IMG/VR virus record: IMGVR_UViG_3300010392_001043
Location: 1 to 47,477 of that record
From: a virus
Reading direction: 5' to 3' (one strand)
Length of the DNA stretch: 47,477 nucleotides
This document shows, piece by piece, positions 24,323-47,413 of the stretch. Every line of letters starts with the position of its first letter. Position 1 is the first letter of the stretch. The notes under the pieces are model-generated. The model saw only the letters and a program-made list of their open reading frames with translations. It had not been told where the DNA came from and made no database searches. Position numbers and translations under genes: made by a program.

Positions 24323-24784
24323 ATGAGAAAAGTGAAATTTGAATATAAAGAGAATGATCTGGGTGGCATTGTATACCCTGATGATACATCTCAGTTTCGT
24401 GATACTTATGTCAAAGATGGGTTCATCTACGGTAATTATCTGGGTAGTAAGTCGTCAATCCAAAACGCTCCTTTAGATTACATAGATTTAGAAGTAGCTG
24501 TTGATAAACACCAATATGCGATCGGTGAAATCATCACATTCACGGGTGAGTTTAGTGATAAATCGTTGAATATATCAATTGTACCAATTACCATTCTTGA
24601 TAGAAATGGTCGACATGTTGACAATATAGGGGTTGAGGTTAAGGAAGGGTTAATATCTGGTGCTGTAAAATTCAATAAACCAGGTGATTATTATATCTCA
24701 CATGAGGGAATTAATTATCACAAAAATATTATACCTATCGAATTAAGATTAAAAAAGGAAGTTAGTTTCAGAGTTTATAGATAG
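24323..24784 (+). CDS. Hypothetical tail-region protein with Ig-like segment
   Basis: 153 aa. N-terminal KVKFEYKENDLGGIVYPDD and GFIYGNYLGSKSSIQNAPLD form an opening beta part; residues ~55-150 look like one Ig-like sandwich (VDKHQYAIGEIITFTGEFSD, ITILDRNGRHVDNIGVEV, GAVKFNKPGDYYISHEG). GGTG ribosome site. Last gene of the late operon before the promoter block at 24793. Possibly a fibre chaperone or adhesin; unrecognised. Confidence 0.6.
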   Translation: MRKVKFEYKENDLGGIVYPDDTSQFRDTYVKDGFIYGNYLGSKSSIQNAPLDYIDLEVAVDKHQYAIGEIITFTGEFSDKSLNISIVPITILDRNGRHVDNIGVEVKEGLISGAVKFNKPGDYYISHEGINYHKNIIPIELRLKKEVSFRVYR

Positions 24785-24792
24785 GTTTAAGG

Positions 24793-24821
24793 TTGACATG
24801 CTTGTCAATAACGGTTAAGGT
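24793..24821 (+). promoter_or_regulatory. Palindromic early-type promoter A (with a duplicated half downstream)
   Basis: TTGACA (24793-24798), 17 nt, TAAGGT (24816-24821). The -35 is the left arm of a perfect palindrome TTGACA-TGCT-TGTCAA (24793-24808). An 18-base block with TTAAGGTTGACATGCTT recurs 28 bp downstream, giving a second TTGACATGCTT at 24821 followed by GTTC-AATAAC-GAAC. It drives the secreted/outer-membrane cassette starting at 24876. Confidence 0.75.
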
Positions 24822-24875
24822 TGACATGCTTTACGTTCAATAACGAACATATTATAAACATACAGAGGTTAAATC

Positions 24876-25280
24876 ATGAAGAAACTATTATTAGTTGTGC
24901 TGTCGATAGCATCACCCTTATTATTTGCAAATGCTGAGTATTATGAAATTGAAGTTAGTAATACTGGTAATGTCCACATAGCCTTTCCTATCTTTGAACA
25001 AAAATCGATTGGGGGTTTTGACAAATACAGTTGTAAAATATATTTATCCAATGGTACAGCTTTATGGGAGCACTCTATAGATGCGGCAGCAGTAAACCAA
25101 CATTCTACTCACAGTTCTTGCTTAGACCAAGGGAATCTATCTTCGGGGAAAAGCTATTTGATGGTATTAGAGTTTGATGATTGGCCCACCCATAATAAGA
25201 CCAGAACGCTACCTGTTATTATAAATGTCCCCTATAGTGGCACGGAAACTGTTGCAACTAAAATACTGTATAAGCCGTAA
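24876..25280 (+). CDS. Secreted protein of unknown function
   Basis: 134 aa. Clear Sec signal: MKKLLLVVLSIASPLLFANA, cleavage expected after ANA (residue 20). The mature part is beta-rich, with two cysteines (YSCKIYL and HSSCLDQG) that could pair in the periplasm. First gene behind promoter A and followed within 6 nt by the PagP-like gene, so it probably works with the outer-membrane proteins. No family recognised. Confidence 0.65.
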   Translation: MKKLLLVVLSIASPLLFANAEYYEIEVSNTGNVHIAFPIFEQKSIGGFDKYSCKIYLSNGTALWEHSIDAAAVNQHSTHSSCLDQGNLSSGKSYLMVLEFDDWPTHNKTRTLPVIINVPYSGTETVATKILYKP

Positions 25281-25286
25281 GAAGCA

Positions 25287-25685
25287 ATGAAATTATCAGC
25301 TATCTTGTTATTGTTGTTCAGTATTAATTCGGTAGCTGATAACTATGTTCATATCAGCATGTTTTCACATCATGTTAAAGATTCATATAAATACCGTCAA
25401 GATCATAATTTGATCGGAATTGAAATTGACGAAAAGTTCATTCATTCATTCATCAATTCACAAAATGACCGGTCGTTTTACATTGGTCGCATTCGTAGAG
25501 ATTATAAATGTAGTGGTAATTGGTGTCTTAATTACAATTACGGAATACTCACGGGTTACGATATGGGTCCGTATAAATGGACACCTATGTTTTTTCCGAT
25601 TATATCATATGATAATGATGTTAAATTTGATATCACAATCGTTCCATCAGTGGTTTATTCAATACAGTTTAGATTTGATTTATGA
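25287..25685 (+). CDS. PagP-like small outer-membrane beta-barrel
   Basis: 132 aa with a signal peptide (MKLSAILLLLFSINSVADN). The layout follows PagP-type palmitoyltransferases: an early His in SMFSHHV (H28/H29), then LIGIEI, FINSQNDRSFYIGRI (N57-S58 in the place of the Asp-Ser of PagP), YGILTGYDMGPYKWTP, PIISYDN and a terminal strand SVVYSIQFRFDL ending in alternating aromatics as outer-membrane barrels do. PagP acylates lipid A. Family link is by pattern and the Asp is replaced, so activity is uncertain. Overlaps the PagL-like gene by 4 nt. Confidence 0.5.
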   Translation: MKLSAILLLLFSINSVADNYVHISMFSHHVKDSYKYRQDHNLIGIEIDEKFIHSFINSQNDRSFYIGRIRRDYKCSGNWCLNYNYGILTGYDMGPYKWTPMFFPIISYDNDVKFDITIVPSVVYSIQFRFDL

Positions 25686-26164
25686 AAATATTACTCATCA
25701 TGTTAATACTAACAACTAACGCCATTGCTGATCCATATATTGCGATCGGTAGTATTTATGATGCGGATATAGCAGGTAAAAAAATGCTTGCTATAGGAAC
25801 ACAAACGGGTGACTGGAAATTCGAAATATCTTATTTTGAAGAGTACACGCGCACATCATGGTACGTGGATCATCCAGAATGGAGACACGCACCATTAACT
25901 ATTGTTAAGAGTCATTCAACATTCTCAATAACTAATAAATTGTATAAAAAGAATTTCGGTGAAATAGAATTTTTTTATGATTTTGGATTTGCAGTAACAG
26001 ATCGGATATCAAGCGTTAATTCATCACATTTACTATTTAAACACAATGTAGGACTGTGGTTACAACCATGCGGTCTGTACGTTAGCCACACATCAAACGC
26101 GGGTTTAGCCGGTGTGAACGCCGGTGAAGATACTTATCAATTCGGATGCGGTATAAGTTTTTGA
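25682..26164 (+). CDS. PagL-like lipid A 3-O-deacylase
   Basis: 160 aa with signal peptide MKILLIMLILTTNAIAD. The last third has the PagL signature: GLYVSHTSNAGLAGVNAGED followed by TYQFGCGISF. H136 and S138 match the catalytic His-x-Ser of PagL; the third catalytic acid aligns at or next to E149/D150, one position different from Pseudomonas PagL. The C-terminal Phe and alternating strands fit an outer-membrane barrel. PagL removes the 3-linked acyl chain of lipid A. Placed with a PagP-like gene under an early-type promoter, it would remodel the surface of the infected cell. Confidence 0.65.
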   Translation: MKILLIMLILTTNAIADPYIAIGSIYDADIAGKKMLAIGTQTGDWKFEISYFEEYTRTSWYVDHPEWRHAPLTIVKSHSTFSITNKLYKKNFGEIEFFYDFGFAVTDRISSVNSSHLLFKHNVGLWLQPCGLYVSHTSNAGLAGVNAGEDTYQFGCGISF

Positions 26165-26622
26165 AAATAATAGTCGATAGATTTCATTCAAATCGAGAAA
26201 CTACATTATCTAGAGTGAGTATCGACGGTGAATTCTTTTGTTTCGGACTTGAAGACGAATATCATTCTATCAAGATAGCTGGTGAAACTCGTATACCATC
26301 AGGAACTTATAACATGACCATGCGTAATGTCGGTGGTTTTGATAAACGATATAAGAAGAAGTTCGATTTTCATTTAGGTATGTTGCAAGTTCAGAACGTG
26401 CCAAACTTTGAGTACATTCTAATTCACATCGGTAATACTGATGAAGATACGGCCGGATGTCTGTTAATCGGTGAAGGTGCGATTGTATCAGATAAAATAA
26501 ATATACAGTACTCAACCAACGCTTACATCAAATTTTACAAGAAAGTTGTTAATGCTTGTTTAAATCGAGAATTGACAATTGAATATTTAGACAACGATAG
26601 GATTTCATATTATGGCCTTTGA
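26146..26622 (+). CDS. DUF5675 family protein
   Basis: 158 aa. Family pattern is clear: TLSRVSIDGEFFCFGLEDEY, IAGETRIPSGTYNMTM, LGMLQVQNVPNFEYILIHIG, then NTDEDTAGCLLIGEG (IH-GN-DT-GC). The conserved His and Cys recall YkuD-like enzymes; the activity of DUF5675 is not established to my knowledge. The start may instead be TTG 26161 (MKIIVDRFHS), which overlaps the PagL stop and matches relatives better. It directly precedes the holin, suggesting a lysis-linked role. Confidence 0.8.
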   Translation: MRYKFLKIIVDRFHSNRETTLSRVSIDGEFFCFGLEDEYHSIKIAGETRIPSGTYNMTMRNVGGFDKRYKKKFDFHLGMLQVQNVPNFEYILIHIGNTDEDTAGCLLIGEGAIVSDKINIQYSTNAYIKFYKKVVNACLNRELTIEYLDNDRISYYGL

Positions 26623-27049
26623 TCCACTAAGTGCATTATTCGATTTGGGAAAAACAGCTATTGAAAAAATTTGGCCTGACCCCACAAAGCGAGCTCACGA
26701 ATTACGATTACTTGAAGAACTGAAACAGAAAGGTGAACTTGCCGAATTGAACGCACATGTTCAATTGCTTCAAGGTCAGATGACGATCAACATGGAAGAA
26801 GCTAAACACAAGAGTGTTTTCGTCGCTGGTTGGCGGCCGTTCGTCGGTTGGGTTGGTGGTTTCTCACTTGCTTATGTATCTATTCTTGAGCCTTTAATGC
26901 GATTCGTGGCTGCCATGATGGGTTATGCTGGTGAGTTCCCGATTATCGACACCACTTTGAATATGCAGGTATTGATGGGTATGCTCGGTATTGCAGGCAT
27001 GAGAAGTTTTGACAAAAAGCAAAAAACCCAAACTGATAATATTAGTTGA
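26612..27049 (+). CDS. Three-TM holin (GTA-type, PF11351-like)
   Basis: 145 aa. N-terminal amphipathic part DPLSALFDLGKTAIEKIWPD and a charged coiled coil (ELRLLEELKQKGELAELNAH) precede the signature VAGWRPFVGWVGGFSLAY, then two further hydrophobic stretches (PLMRFVAAMMG; MQVLMGMLGIAGMRSFDK). This is the holin type often paired with a phage or GTA endolysin. Here it follows DUF5675; the lysozyme is far away at 42369. Confidence 0.85.
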   Translation: MAFDPLSALFDLGKTAIEKIWPDPTKRAHELRLLEELKQKGELAELNAHVQLLQGQMTINMEEAKHKSVFVAGWRPFVGWVGGFSLAYVSILEPLMRFVAAMMGYAGEFPIIDTTLNMQVLMGMLGIAGMRSFDKKQKTQTDNIS

Positions 27050-27376: not shown

Positions 27377-27479
27377 AACAAGTAAACGCCGCACATATTC
27401 TAAACGTGGTGAAAAGCTATATCATGATAATAAATTTTGGGATAAAAAAACAGATGAAAAACGAGACTCTAAATCATGA
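27369..27479 (+). CDS. Small basic protein
   Basis: 36 aa, MGKTSKRRTYSKRGEKLYHD then NKFWDKKTDEKRDSKS; about 40% Lys/Arg. It overlaps the upstream gene by 8 nt and its TGA overlaps the next ATG (ATGA), the same coupling used through this cluster. A nucleic-acid or membrane-surface role is possible but only inferred from charge. Confidence 0.55.
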   Translation: MGKTSKRRTYSKRGEKLYHDNKFWDKKTDEKRDSKS

Positions 27480-27856
27480 AAACTCTAACCGTCATACTAT
27501 TATTGGCATTCACAGGTTCGGTGTTCGCGGATCCTATCGATGATTGGCTCAAGACTGAAGAAGCTCAAAAAGAAGCGTACTATGTAACAAAAGGCACGCT
27601 TCTTTGTCGTGAAATTAAGACAATGAAAAATTTATATAATTATCTCGTTGTTAATAATTTTACTTACAATCAGGCATTGATTAAACGATCACCATGTTTC
27701 CCTTTGCCAAATTATCGATTCGGTCGATTGATTGGTGCAGATGGTGAATTTTTATTAATTGAGTATCGATACAACTCAAAATTCACATTGAAAAGCTGGA
27801 CTCATCGCAGATTCATTTCAAAATGGGTCGATTACAAAAATACATTGGTTAAATAA
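27476..27856 (+). CDS. Secreted protein of unknown function
   Basis: 126 aa with a signal peptide (MKTLTVILLLAFTGSVFAD, cleavage after VFA). The mature part has two cysteines (LLCREIKTMKNLYNYL and KRSPCFPLP) and an aromatic basic C-terminus (KSWTHRRFISKWVDYKN). Periplasmic or outer-membrane location is expected. No family recognised. Confidence 0.65.
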   Translation: MKTLTVILLLAFTGSVFADPIDDWLKTEEAQKEAYYVTKGTLLCREIKTMKNLYNYLVVNNFTYNQALIKRSPCFPLPNYRFGRLIGADGEFLLIEYRYNSKFTLKSWTHRRFISKWVDYKNTLVK

Positions 27857-28743: not shown

Positions 28744-28850
28744 CTCGCCTTCCTTCTTTTGAACGATACCGTTTCATACCAATAGATAGAACCATCAGTA
28801 TAATAGTAAACATACTCATTCACGTTTACCCATTCAGCAATCAATATCAA
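28740..28850 (-). CDS. Small aromatic-rich protein (36 aa)
   Basis: Minus strand, TTG start inside the stop of the upstream MazG-like gene, with GAAGGTGG 9-13 nt before it. Sequence features: AEWVNVNEYVYYYTDGSIYW then YETVSFKRRKAS; eight Tyr/Trp in a short span. It ends at a TTAA where its stop and the convergent plus-strand stop overlap. Last gene of the minus operon. No family recognised; small size keeps confidence moderate. Confidence 0.45.
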   Translation of the reverse strand: MILIAEWVNVNEYVYYYTDGSIYWYETVSFKRRKAS

Positions 28851-29374
28851 AACTTTTTACCACCTTCTTTAGCGCGGTTTTCTCGCTTATGATCGGCTCG
28901 GTTTTTATTGTACTCAAATTTTTCATACAAAGCGCCTGGAATATCATAACCCCGCGATTCTCCAACTTCAAGAATGGTGCTGATTAATACACTGTAACAT
29001 GTGCTCACATTGCTCGCACCATAATGAATTGATTTAGTTAAATCAATCAACGCTACATTACAAGTTAAATGCTTTCCGCCGATAGAATCGATATCATTCA
29101 ACATCATATGATGTGATACGTCGATATATTTCCAACCATATCGACCACCAAGATCAAGTAATCGAATCATTGCGTCAGCTAGTTCAACCTCTCCCATTAT
29201 CCGATGTGGTAAATGATCATCCATTAGAGTTTTACGTTCACCCTCTGTCGCTTCTGCGATTTCTGTGGAAACTAATTGTAAGGTTTCATAAATACATCGG
29301 TTAGGGTCATCCCACCATCCAACTTTTTTATTTTGAAGGTAGATCTTTACTGCTAATTTATCAATTTCTTTCAT
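28847..29374 (-). CDS. MazG-like nucleotide pyrophosphohydrolase
   Basis: 175 aa. All-alpha NTP-PPase pattern: LVSTEIAEATEGERK (the E-x2-E helix), then EVELADAMIRLLDLGGRYGW (ExxD metal-binding motif), and the basic tail (NRADHKRENRAKEGG). These phage enzymes hydrolyse (d)NTPs or alarmones to monophosphates. Located at the end of the replication operon, it fits nucleotide pool control. AAGGA ribosome site precedes the ATG. Confidence 0.8.
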   Translation of the reverse strand: MKEIDKLAVKIYLQNKKVGWWDDPNRCIYETLQLVSTEIAEATEGERKTLMDDHLPHRIMGEVELADAMIRLLDLGGRYGWKYIDVSHHMMLNDIDSIGGKHLTCNVALIDLTKSIHYGASNVSTCYSVLISTILEVGESRGYDIPGALYEKFEYNKNRADHKRENRAKEGGKKF

Positions 29375-37994: not shown

Positions 37995-38306
37995 ATGAGT
38001 AATAGTAAAAGAATGAAGCCGGATGATAGGAAAGACGAGATCTTAAAAGCTGCTCTTGTTGTTTCTGAAATTCATGGTTATGATAAAATAACACGCGCTC
38101 AGGTTGCTCAACAGGCGAATGGTTGTGCCGAATCTTTAGTTTCAAACTACTTTGGTACCATGGTTGAATTCAGACGTAAATTAATGCGTGAAGCTATTGC
38201 TACCGAAAATTTGAAAATAATTGCTCAAGGTGTAATAGTTAAAGATGTTCACGCGTTAAAAGCTCCGTTGGAGTTACGACAACGCGCTGTTATTTCTTGT
38301 ATTTAA
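37995..38306 (+). CDS. Small TetR-like DNA-binding protein
   Basis: 103 aa. N-terminal helix KDEILKAALVVSEIHGYDKI and the HTH TRAQVAQQANGCAESLVSNY FGT are typical of TetR/AcrR N-terminal domains (helices 1-4, F/YF turn). The C-terminus (RRKLMREAIATENLKIIAQG ... HALKAPLELRQRAVI) is too short for a TetR ligand pocket. Phages often carry this short form upstream of the primase. It is the only clear candidate in the window to bind the repeated palindromes. SD AGAGAG. Confidence 0.8.
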   Translation: MSNSKRMKPDDRKDEILKAALVVSEIHGYDKITRAQVAQQANGCAESLVSNYFGTMVEFRRKLMREAIATENLKIIAQGVIVKDVHALKAPLELRQRAVISCI

Positions 38307-40887: not shown

Positions 40888-41523
40888 ATGAAAGTAACAT
40901 TAAATTGCATTACTCAACCAGTGTTAGATATGACAGCGGAAGAATATATCATCTATGCTGCGCGGGTTAGTTCTGATGAACGTGTGAATAACGAAACAGC
41001 ACCTAAGCTGATGAATTATCTGATTAAACACAAACATTGGTCACCCTTTGAAATGATTAGTGTGGGTATTGAGATCGAAACATCACGCGCTATTGCTCAA
41101 CAGATATTGAGACATCGCTCGTTCTCCTTTCAGGAATTCAGTCAACGCTATGCGGCTGTCACTGATATGGAACCGGTTCAATTACGTTACCAAGCGGAAA
41201 CCAATCGTCAGAGCAGTACTGCTCAATTACCTGGGGATCACGATGCTCATCAAGGCGTGAGAGATGGTGTTGCGTACTGTGAAAACCTTTACCATCAACT
41301 GCTAGAAGACGGTGTTGCCAAAGAATGCGCGCGAATGATTCTACCGTTGACAACTCAAACGACCGTGGTCATGCACGGCACATTGCGAAGTTGGATACAC
41401 TTCTTTGATCAACGTTGTAGCGAACATGCGCAGTTAGAAATTCAACAAATAGCGTACGCTGCAAGGGATGAAATAGCGAAAGTTTGTCCCTGGACCGCCG
41501 CCGCACTTGATTGGAACGACTAG
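40888..41523 (+). CDS. thyX: Flavin-dependent thymidylate synthase ThyX
   Basis: 211 aa. The ThyX signature RHRSFSFQEFSQR (residues 75-87; RHRxxSxQxxSxR) is complete. Other family pieces: YAARVSSDERVNNE, LIKHKHWSPFEM (the H-x-SPxEH-like region, here FEM), SARMILPL-like ECARMILPLTTQTTV and the C-terminal RSWIHFFDQRCSEHAQLEIQ. Makes dTMP from dUMP using FAD and folate. It is the last gene of the replication operon, before a strong terminator; supplies dTTP for replication together with NrdJb further on. Confidence 0.95.
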   Translation: MKVTLNCITQPVLDMTAEEYIIYAARVSSDERVNNETAPKLMNYLIKHKHWSPFEMISVGIEIETSRAIAQQILRHRSFSFQEFSQRYAAVTDMEPVQLRYQAETNRQSSTAQLPGDHDAHQGVRDGVAYCENLYHQLLEDGVAKECARMILPLTTQTTVVMHGTLRSWIHFFDQRCSEHAQLEIQQIAYAARDEIAKVCPWTAAALDWND

Positions 41524-42372: not shown

Positions 42373-42797
42373 ATTTATTAGCATTACTTTTGATTTTGAA
42401 CATCCAAGATCACATAAAATCACACGAAGGATTTAGATCAAAACCTTACTTTGATTCGGAGGGACTTTTAACCATCGGGTACGGTCGCAATTTGCAATCC
42501 GTGGGCATATCTAAAGAAACCGCTCAAATCATGCTTGAGAAAGATATAGCCACATGTGTGAAACAGCTTACAAAAAATTATCCATGGTATTTGAAAAGAA
42601 AACACAGTGCTCAAATTGTCCTAATTGACATGTGTTTCAACATGGGTTTACCAAGACTATCGAAATTTGAAAAAATGCTTGGGGCGTTACTTGCCAAAAA
42701 CTACGAACTTGCTGCTGTGGAATGTTTAGATAGTCCATATGGTAGAAAGTATCCAAGACGAGCCAACAGAAACGCTAACTTACTCAGGGGGAAATAA
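42369..42797 (+). CDS. Endolysin: T4-type lysozyme (GH24)
   Basis: 142 aa, GTG start. Catalytic triad with exact T4-lysozyme spacing: E20 (KSHEG), D29 (YFDSEG), T35 (LLTIGYGRN). Further family parts: LIDMCFNMGLPRLSKFEKML and CLDSPYGRKYPRRANRNANL. It cuts the glycan backbone of peptidoglycan. The hydrophobic N-terminus (MNLLALLLILNI) might act as a weak signal anchor. Unlike usual late lysis genes it sits in a cassette behind an early-type promoter. Confidence 0.88.
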   Translation: MNLLALLLILNIQDHIKSHEGFRSKPYFDSEGLLTIGYGRNLQSVGISKETAQIMLEKDIATCVKQLTKNYPWYLKRKHSAQIVLIDMCFNMGLPRLSKFEKMLGALLAKNYELAAVECLDSPYGRKYPRRANRNANLLRGK

Positions 42798-43267
42798 TGA
42801 AAGGTGACAGATCTAATGATGGTAAACCACCGGTATCGATGGTATTGGAAGCTTCTGAAGCGATTATAGGTTGTGCCGAAGTATTAAAATTTGGTGCCGA
42901 AAAGTACAGTCGTGGGAATTGGAAAAAAGGGCTCAATCACACCGAAATTTGCGATAGTCTCATACGTCACTTGACGCAATATCTCACCGGTGAAGATAAC
43001 GACGATGAAAGTAATTTACCGCATGTGGACCATATTCTATGTAATGCGTTGTTTTTGTCAGAGTTAACCAAGACTCGCTTAGACTTGGACGACAGATCAT
43101 CAATACTTTCGAATAGCGGTTGTCCAAATTGCGGAAATGAAAAACTCACATTGTTGAGGACTGAACGTCTTAAACGATGCACTGATTGCCAAACTGATAT
43201 CGAATGGTTACTTGACCCAGGTCAAAAACCAGTTGGTTACACCGTACAGGATGATCAAGATGAATAA
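42797..43267 (+). CDS. DUF5664 dATP/dGTP diphosphohydrolase-like with zinc ribbon
   Basis: 156 aa. Residues 1-95: KGDRSNDGKPPVSMVLEASE, VLKFGAEKYSRGNWKKGLNH, SLIRHLTQYLTGEDNDDESN and LPHVDHILCNALFLSEL give the DUF5664/MazG-like pattern. Residues 112-140: zinc ribbon CPNCGNEKLTLLRTERLKRC TDC with the LDPGQKPVGY end seen in small phage zinc proteins. So it looks like a fusion of a dNTP pyrophosphohydrolase and a zinc ribbon. Acts on nucleotide pools. Confidence 0.75.
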   Translation: MKGDRSNDGKPPVSMVLEASEAIIGCAEVLKFGAEKYSRGNWKKGLNHTEICDSLIRHLTQYLTGEDNDDESNLPHVDHILCNALFLSELTKTRLDLDDRSSILSNSGCPNCGNEKLTLLRTERLKRCTDCQTDIEWLLDPGQKPVGYTVQDDQDE

Positions 43268-46099: not shown

Positions 46100-47413
46100 A
46101 TGGCTATAGAACAACCAATCTGCAATCCCACCACCCCAGGAAGTGGTCAGGTACTAGTAAACGCATTAGCTACCCTATCAAGCCTTATGAACATCACTAG
46201 TGTAATAACAGCGAGCACGTTTGGTGATTCATACGCTGATTATCAAAGATTCACTGACATGGGTAATAATTACCAATTCTCAACAATACAAGCAAGTAAT
46301 TGGGCATTTTTTCTTGCTAATATGGGTAATAGGGTAAATGTAACTAATTTCAAAGGTGTCGGTGGTGATAATTTCGCAGATATGCGAACACGTTTGACGG
46401 CAGATATACTAACACCTAAAACCCAACTAGTTCTAATGAACGGTGGGGTAAATGATTTCTATGCAGATGGTAGGTCAGCAGTTGACGCATTTGCAGATTT
46501 TGAGTTTATGGTCGACGCGATGGTCGCCAACGGGCAATTGGTATTATTTCAAAATACGCCTGCACAAAACTCATCGCGCGGTTTCTTTAGCGTTGCAAAA
46601 ACAATAGAGCTAGCAACATTTAATTTGCTAGTTGATGAGTACGCAAGAACGCAAGACGGATTAATTGTAGTAAACGTCAACACACCATCAACAAATCAAA
46701 ATGATAATGCTAATGGTGCTGCTAGAGCAGATTATTATATTGGTCTTGACAAGATTCATTACGGAATTTTTGGATCTTATGATTCAAGTAGACTATCTGA
46801 AGAAGCTGTTGCCCCATGGTTTATACGAGGTAACAACACTCACGGTATGCACCCATTGCTCAGCGGGGACATAGGTGACATCAATTTCAACAATTTTAAT
46901 TCCAACACTGGTACCGCTGGAACTGGTATGTCCGGAACTGTACCCGCTGGTTGGATTGCCAAGCGCCAATCTGGCGAAGGTACGATGGTTGGTTCTCACA
47001 ATGCTGATACGGGTGACTATGAGATTGCTATAACTAAGGCAGTCGCCGCAACGTCTTCAGTGTTTAGAGTTGAGTCAAATGAGTTAAAATCAAATTTTGT
47101 CGGTGGTGAAACCGTATCAGTCAAACTGATGATGAGCCTCACTGGTGAAAACGATATTGAAGAAATAAGAGCCTACCATTACAATGATAACGGTGTTGAT
47201 CCATATTTTACTGTCGATTGGGGCCGAAGTATTAATAACTATACACCAGTTAGTCCAATGTCTGTCACTGACATACTTATTGATATTGCACCGAGTGTTA
47301 TACTCGCAACACCTCTTGTTAATGTTAAATTTTTCATCGACATACGTTTAAAAGGTGATTCAACGTGTACGTTAACTCTAAAACACATTAGATACACAGT
47401 AACAGGACCATAA
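46100..47413 (+). CDS. SGNH/GDSL-hydrolase virion protein
   Basis: 437 aa. SGNH blocks in order: GDSYAD (42-47), GVGGDNFADM (87-96; Gly and oxyanion site), NGGVNDFYAD (114-123) and DKIHYG (217-222; catalytic Asp and His). From ~265 a second beta domain (NFNNFNSNTGTAGTGMSGTV, then WIAKRQSG...) ends TLTLKHIRYTVTGP like a carbohydrate-binding module. Such proteins de-acetylate host capsule or LPS from tail fibres or spikes. Enzymatic target not known. Confidence 0.8.
   Translation: MAIEQPICNPTTPGSGQVLVNALATLSSLMNITSVITASTFGDSYADYQRFTDMGNNYQFSTIQASNWAFFLANMGNRVNVTNFKGVGGDNFADMRTRLTADILTPKTQLVLMNGGVNDFYADGRSAVDAFADFEFMVDAMVANGQLVLFQNTPAQNSSRGFFSVAKTIELATFNLLVDEYARTQDGLIVVNVNTPSTNQNDNANGAARADYYIGLDKIHYGIFGSYDSSRLSEEAVAPWFIRGNNTHGMHPLLSGDIGDINFNNFNSNTGTAGTGMSGTVPAGWIAKRQSGEGTMVGSHNADTGDYEIAITKAVAATSSVFRVESNELKSNFVGGETVSVKLMMSLTGENDIEEIRAYHYNDNGVDPYFTVDWGRSINNYTPVSPMSVTDILIDIAPSVILATPLVNVKFFIDIRLKGDSTCTLTLKHIRYTVTGP

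Follow-up and report, generated by a model that had tools for sequence, protein, structure and literature searches.

Paired PagP-like and PagL-like genes in a putative envelope/lysis unit of a phage with a predicted Mu-like tail

A gene for a PagP-like protein and a gene for a PagL-like protein lie next to each other in the IMG/VR virus record IMGVR_UViG_3300010392_001043, of which positions 1 to 47,477 (hereafter the window) were analyzed. Judged from sequence, this pair within an envelope/lysis unit is real, and the activity of its products is putative. It is possible, and we propose tentatively, that the unit helps the outer membrane to give way at lysis through these two proteins.

The phage and its gene block

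A second IMG/VR record, IMGVR_UViG_3300010430_000109 (44,962 bp), represents the same phage, with 99.7-99.8% identity across the stretches compared; because the two contigs overlap at both ends, they can be joined into a circle of roughly 57.8 kb. From 24701 to 26700 this sister contig has zero nucleotide differences from the window, so that a frameshift or an assembly error in the three genes considered here (P1, P2, and P3) is unlikely. Judging from its tail sheath, a Mu Gp48-like protein, and further tail genes, the phage probably has a contractile tail of the Mu type. A search of INPHARED turned up no close cultured relative: the DNA polymerase and tail sheath share less than 60% identity with any entry, and the 10 kb around P1-P3 gave no megablast match.

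Other genes of this phage may also act on lipids or nucleotides. A GDSL lipase/acylhydrolase domain (PF13472; phrog_6102, "lipase") is found in a 437 aa ORF at 46100-47413 of the window, and an alpha/beta hydrolase whose N-terminus includes a hydrophobic segment, possibly a further lipid-active enzyme, at 1961-2704 of the sister-contig segment L020. Nucleotide-pool genes of the window include PF18909 (dATP/dGTP diphosphohydrolase N-terminal domain) and a pyrophosphatase-like ORF, at 42797-43267 and 28847-29374, with which ThyX at 40888 is grouped.

The block itself contains the following features:

24785-24875, + strand: promoter region, with the palindrome TTGACATGCTTGTCAA at 24793 and TAAGGT (weak -10) 17 nt past TTGACA
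24876-25280, + strand: P1, 134 aa, exported-looking, two Cys in the predicted mature part
25287-25685, + strand: P2, 132 aa, putative PagP-like outer-membrane protein
25682-26164, + strand: P3, 160 aa, PagL-like protein, predicted 8-strand barrel
26146-26622, + strand: DUF5675 protein, putative L,D-carboxypeptidase/peptidoglycan hydrolase (PF18925, 93.9 bits)
26612-27049, + strand: holin, GTA_holin_3TM family (PF11351, 70.8 bits; phrog_3427 holin, E 2.5e-35)

The first-pass annotation had described 24785-26164 as a lipid A cassette of three exported proteins in tandem behind a promoter. Three such ORFs behind a promoter-like site were confirmed: P1 and P2 are separated by 6 nt, P2 and P3 share 4 nt (ATGA, the start of P3 lying within the stop of P2), and all three N-termini (MKKLLLVVLSIASPLLFANA, MKLSAILLLLFSINSVADN, and MKILLIMLILTTNAIADP), judged by eye, are basic/hydrophobic and signal-peptide-like. 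The start of the cassette also stood, since 24785 is the first base past the preceding gene, but its end did not: at 26146, still within P3, the DUF5675 gene begins, and this gene in turn runs into the holin gene at 26612. The P2/P3, P3/DUF5675, and DUF5675/holin overlaps support one unit, and P1 to holin (24876-27049) would form a single envelope/lysis transcription unit. It is this continuation into a putative L,D-peptidase and a holin that marks P1-P3 as an envelope/lysis block.

As a lipid A cassette, the trio is reduced to its PagP-like and PagL-like members, whereas for P1 no link to lipid A was seen. P1 had no notable match in Pfam, PHROGs, NCBIfam, or the PDB; its weak match to a bacterial Ig-like repeat region (E 0.0013 calculated for a single genome, with 369 genomes searched) was not significant and was rejected. 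PADLOC returned no match for P1, P2, P3, the DUF5675 protein, or two downstream ORFs. Downstream of the holin, at 27476-27856 of the window, an exported-looking protein of 126 aa is encoded, with no family match.

The PagL-like protein

P3 narrowly passes the Pfam PagL model PF09411 (24.0 bits for a cut-off of 23; E 4.7e-5). The PagL motif had been placed at H136 and S138 in the first-pass annotation; these positions are right, and they are invariant, along with N139, N146, and G148, in an alignment with 15 bacterial PagLs. The catalytic set of PagL is His126/Ser128/Glu140; D150 of P3 stands in the column of E140, with E149 adjacent. The mature part of the Pseudomonas aeruginosa PagL used as query was checked to be identical to PDB 2erv.

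The AlphaFold2 model of P3, which was built from an alignment of 15 PagL rows and is thereby biased toward the PagL fold, has eight strands (pLDDT 71.7, pTM 0.55), and its best Foldseek match is PagL 2erv (E 5.6e-5). In VIA-align, several other 8-strand barrels, OprF and OmpA among them, score level with PagL against this model, so it is the motif, and not the fold by itself, that points to PagL. A PagL profile built without P3 misses it (E 0.31), and a beta-strand amphipathicity script gave no significant signal for P3 (0.33 of shuffles). A bacterial relative from a gammaproteobacterial genome (L105) shares 41% identity over P3 residues 97-155 (E 1.1e-4); it is also a Pfam PagL match and has shorter loops and an N.GE pattern in common with P3. 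The assignment of P3 as PagL-like is supported by the profile, the conserved residues, and the fold model.

The PagP-like protein

In Pfam, P2 has no match at E up to 1, PF07017 (PagP) included. It does match phrog_3600, which is labeled PagP (E 2.7e-15), and Escherichia coli PagP, whose mature part was checked to be identical to PDB 3gp6, matches the same region of that profile (E 1.3e-6). When a P2 set of eight phage sequences and three bacterial relatives was compared with ten PagPs in hhalign, a probability of 88% was obtained over 83 aligned columns; the controls gave 5.9% (PagL), 0.5% (reversed), and at most 1.3% (30 column-shuffled). With the phage sequences alone, that is, without the bacterial bridges, the probability drops to 11%.

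A chance resemblance, in which P2 or P3 would be unrelated to PagP or PagL, is very improbable. Identities are indeed low (about 20-28%) and the Pfam score of P3 is borderline, but profile, motif spacing, and fold agree independently for P3, and P2 has both its strong PHROG match and the controls.

The catalytic set of PagP is His33/Asp76/Ser77. In an unguided MAFFT alignment, with which hhalign agrees, H33 stands over H29 of P2 and D76-S77 over N57-S58; His and Ser are retained, and the catalytic Asp is replaced by Asn57. This Asn is invariant in seven aligned phage sequences, as are, among P2 and its aligned phage relatives, H29, Y34, H40, S58, R62, G67, and P120. Given Asn at the Asp76 position, activity of P2 is not to be assumed. 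The PagP-like barrel layout earlier attributed to P2 has been borne out as homology but not as structure: of the two barrels for which structure prediction had been suggested, P3 yielded its eight strands, whereas P2 yielded no usable fold (pLDDT 32.3). The amphipathicity script was not significant for P2 either (0.09 of shuffles), and the precursor lacks the length for the extended N-terminal part of PagP (amphipathic helix). On the basis of these alignments, a PagP-like ancestry is most likely for P2, with the catalytic Asp missing.

The loss of this Asp agrees with another explanation, which we consider unlikely: P2 and P3 might be inactive or non-enzymatic small outer-membrane barrels with nothing but PagP/PagL ancestry, in which the surface loops matter, for example in receptor masking or as Lom/Bor-like morons. 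Each protein is a distant member of its family, predicted phage proteins often include small barrels of the outer-membrane type, and the P3 model resembles OprF and OmpA to about the same degree as PagL. However, the conserved positions of P3 cluster in the PagL catalytic motif, and P2 keeps His and Ser, residues that a purely structural barrel would not need.

Relatives in other phages

A tblastn search of INPHARED with the CKB-S2 homologue of P2 found 198 records, 197 from Vibrio phages and one from Salicola, many of which already carry a PagP annotation. A PagP-like protein, orf72, has also been published for Burkholderia phage CSP3 (PMC10269572). In IMG/VR, P2 searches returned the same phage and, via the Vibrio relatives, a further locus, L111. 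In Vibrio phage 501E54-1 (L010 1784-2929), an annotated ORF of 381 aa carries the PagP-like domain at its C-terminus; it is either a fusion or an ORF with a mis-called start.

Apart from the sister contig, no relative of P3 was found in INPHARED or IMG/VR. One match in Rhizobium (PLSDB) was rejected, as it lies opposite a LacI-type gene. A genome-contig scan with P3 and PagL gave no match, and the same scan with the C-terminal motif led to Pseudomonas PagLs. Searched with a local PagL profile, the Vibrio phage flanks examined showed no further convincing PagL-like ORF, and P. aeruginosa PagL found nothing in INPHARED by tblastn.

The first-pass annotation had regarded a phage PagP/PagL pair as undescribed. 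This holds for the pair, on which no paper was found in the open-access literature, but not for its PagP-like member. Since PagP-like genes are known in Vibrio phages and CSP3, novelty appears limited to the PagL-like gene and to the pair, which combines known kinds in a new way.

Regulation and possible roles in infection

The promoter-like site heading the P1-holin unit belongs to a class defined by TTGACN6GTCAA, of which the window contains 6 exact copies, against 0.05 expected, and of which 8 more lie within the initial 15 kb of the sister contig:

Window: 24793, 27046, 34620, 41614, 45025, 45516
Sister-contig segment L020: 605, 1369, 4846, 5128, 5486, 7368, 8976, 10398

At these 14 promoter-like sites the motif takes the place of the -35 box and is followed some 17 nt later by a -10-like hexamer; the site before P1 has the weakest -10 in the class, and TTAAGGTTGACATGCTT is an exact repeat at 24787 and 24815, with its second copy at 24815. 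From its distribution, TTGACN6GTCAA looks like a shared, phage-wide operator, which would place the P1-holin unit under the general control of the phage. A small TetR-like ORF at 37995-38306 (by eye; phrog_8723) is a possible regulator of these sites.

Members of this class also precede replication and other genes, and one stands immediately before the terminase gene; the promoter therefore gives no indication of when the unit is expressed. The copies before replication and other genes are consistent with a somewhat doubtful but serious alternative, in which the same two lipid A enzymes are used for a cell-surface change in infection and their lysis neighbors are incidental; such a change could serve superinfection exclusion, prevent re-adsorption of progeny to debris, or protect the infected cell from envelope stress. 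P1-P3 are AT-rich (34.9% vs 39.3% GC) and sit between the tail fiber and the lysis genes, a typical accessory position. At the loci inspected, the PagP-like genes of Vibrio phages are near NinG, recombination, and other early-type genes and not beside lysis genes, which favors a surface change and counts against lysis, and the PagP-like gene of L111 directly follows tail genes. On the other hand, known phage LPS receptors are in most cases sugars, not acyl chains, there is no sign of exclusion in the present data, and the promoter class, with its copy upstream of the terminase gene, does not fix the timing.

The role in lysis is ranked only slightly ahead of the surface change. According to this proposal, P2 and P3 would be exported, insert into the outer membrane of the host, and act on outer-leaflet acyl chains: P3, as a PagL-type serine hydrolase, would release an ester-bound acyl chain of lipid A, and P2, as a PagP-type acyltransferase/phospholipase, would move or remove a phospholipid acyl chain. 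Expressed alongside the holin and the putative peptidoglycan hydrolase, they may disturb lipid packing and so aid lysis, and they would occupy the gene slot used for spanins in other phages. Phage relatives of the DUF5675 protein carry the annotation peptidoglycan hydrolase or L,D-carboxypeptidase/transpeptidase, and one of these relatives, in Thiohalocapsa phage MD03, is close to an Rz-like spanin gene. A simple lipobox scan, which could miss a spanin with no recognizable lipobox, found no credible spanin candidate in the window and the left part of the sister contig. Together, these observations favor a lysis-linked role. Conversely, bacterial PagP adds an acyl chain and usually tightens the membrane, which counts against it. 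A stronger version, in which two acyl-chain enzymes of opposite sense (lipid A/phospholipid) constitute an outer-membrane lysis step that replaces spanins, is quite improbable.

The PagP label is widespread in Vibrio phages, and no functional test of it was found. A PagP-like/PagL-like pair beside lysis genes offers a concrete and simple test case of whether phages rebuild lipid A, and why; if the pair does serve lysis, an enzymatic outer-membrane step would be added to the known spanin routes.

Comparison with known systems

Among phage proteins, P2 groups with the phrog_3600 proteins of Vibrio phages (e.g., CKB-S2, F89, and 1.151.O), with which it has H29, N57, S58, R62, G67, and P120 in common; CSP3 orf72 is PagP-like by its published description. 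With E. coli PagP (PDB 1thq/3gp6), the catalytic His and Ser and the pattern H..YN(E)..[DN]S..G align. P2 differs in its precursor (132 aa vs 186), which has no counterpart of the N-terminal helix region, in Asn57 at the place of Asp76, and in the absence of a PF07017 match.

A PagL gene is already present in a phage/prophage protein collection, as the unnamed phrog_15758, which is matched by P. aeruginosa PagL (E 9.5e-81) but not, at E up to 1, by P3. Compared with P. aeruginosa PagL (PDB 2erv), P3 has only about 27% identity, D150 where PagL has Glu (the preceding residue, E149, may correspond instead, as in L105), and shorter turns before residues 105 and 128 (alignment gaps), and it is encoded by a phage, near a holin gene. 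Nevertheless, both are small, exported-looking proteins with an 8-strand barrel (predicted for P3), and both have the HxSNAGL...NxG motif with equal His/Ser spacing; in the E140 column, P3 has D150 as a candidate for the acidic residue.
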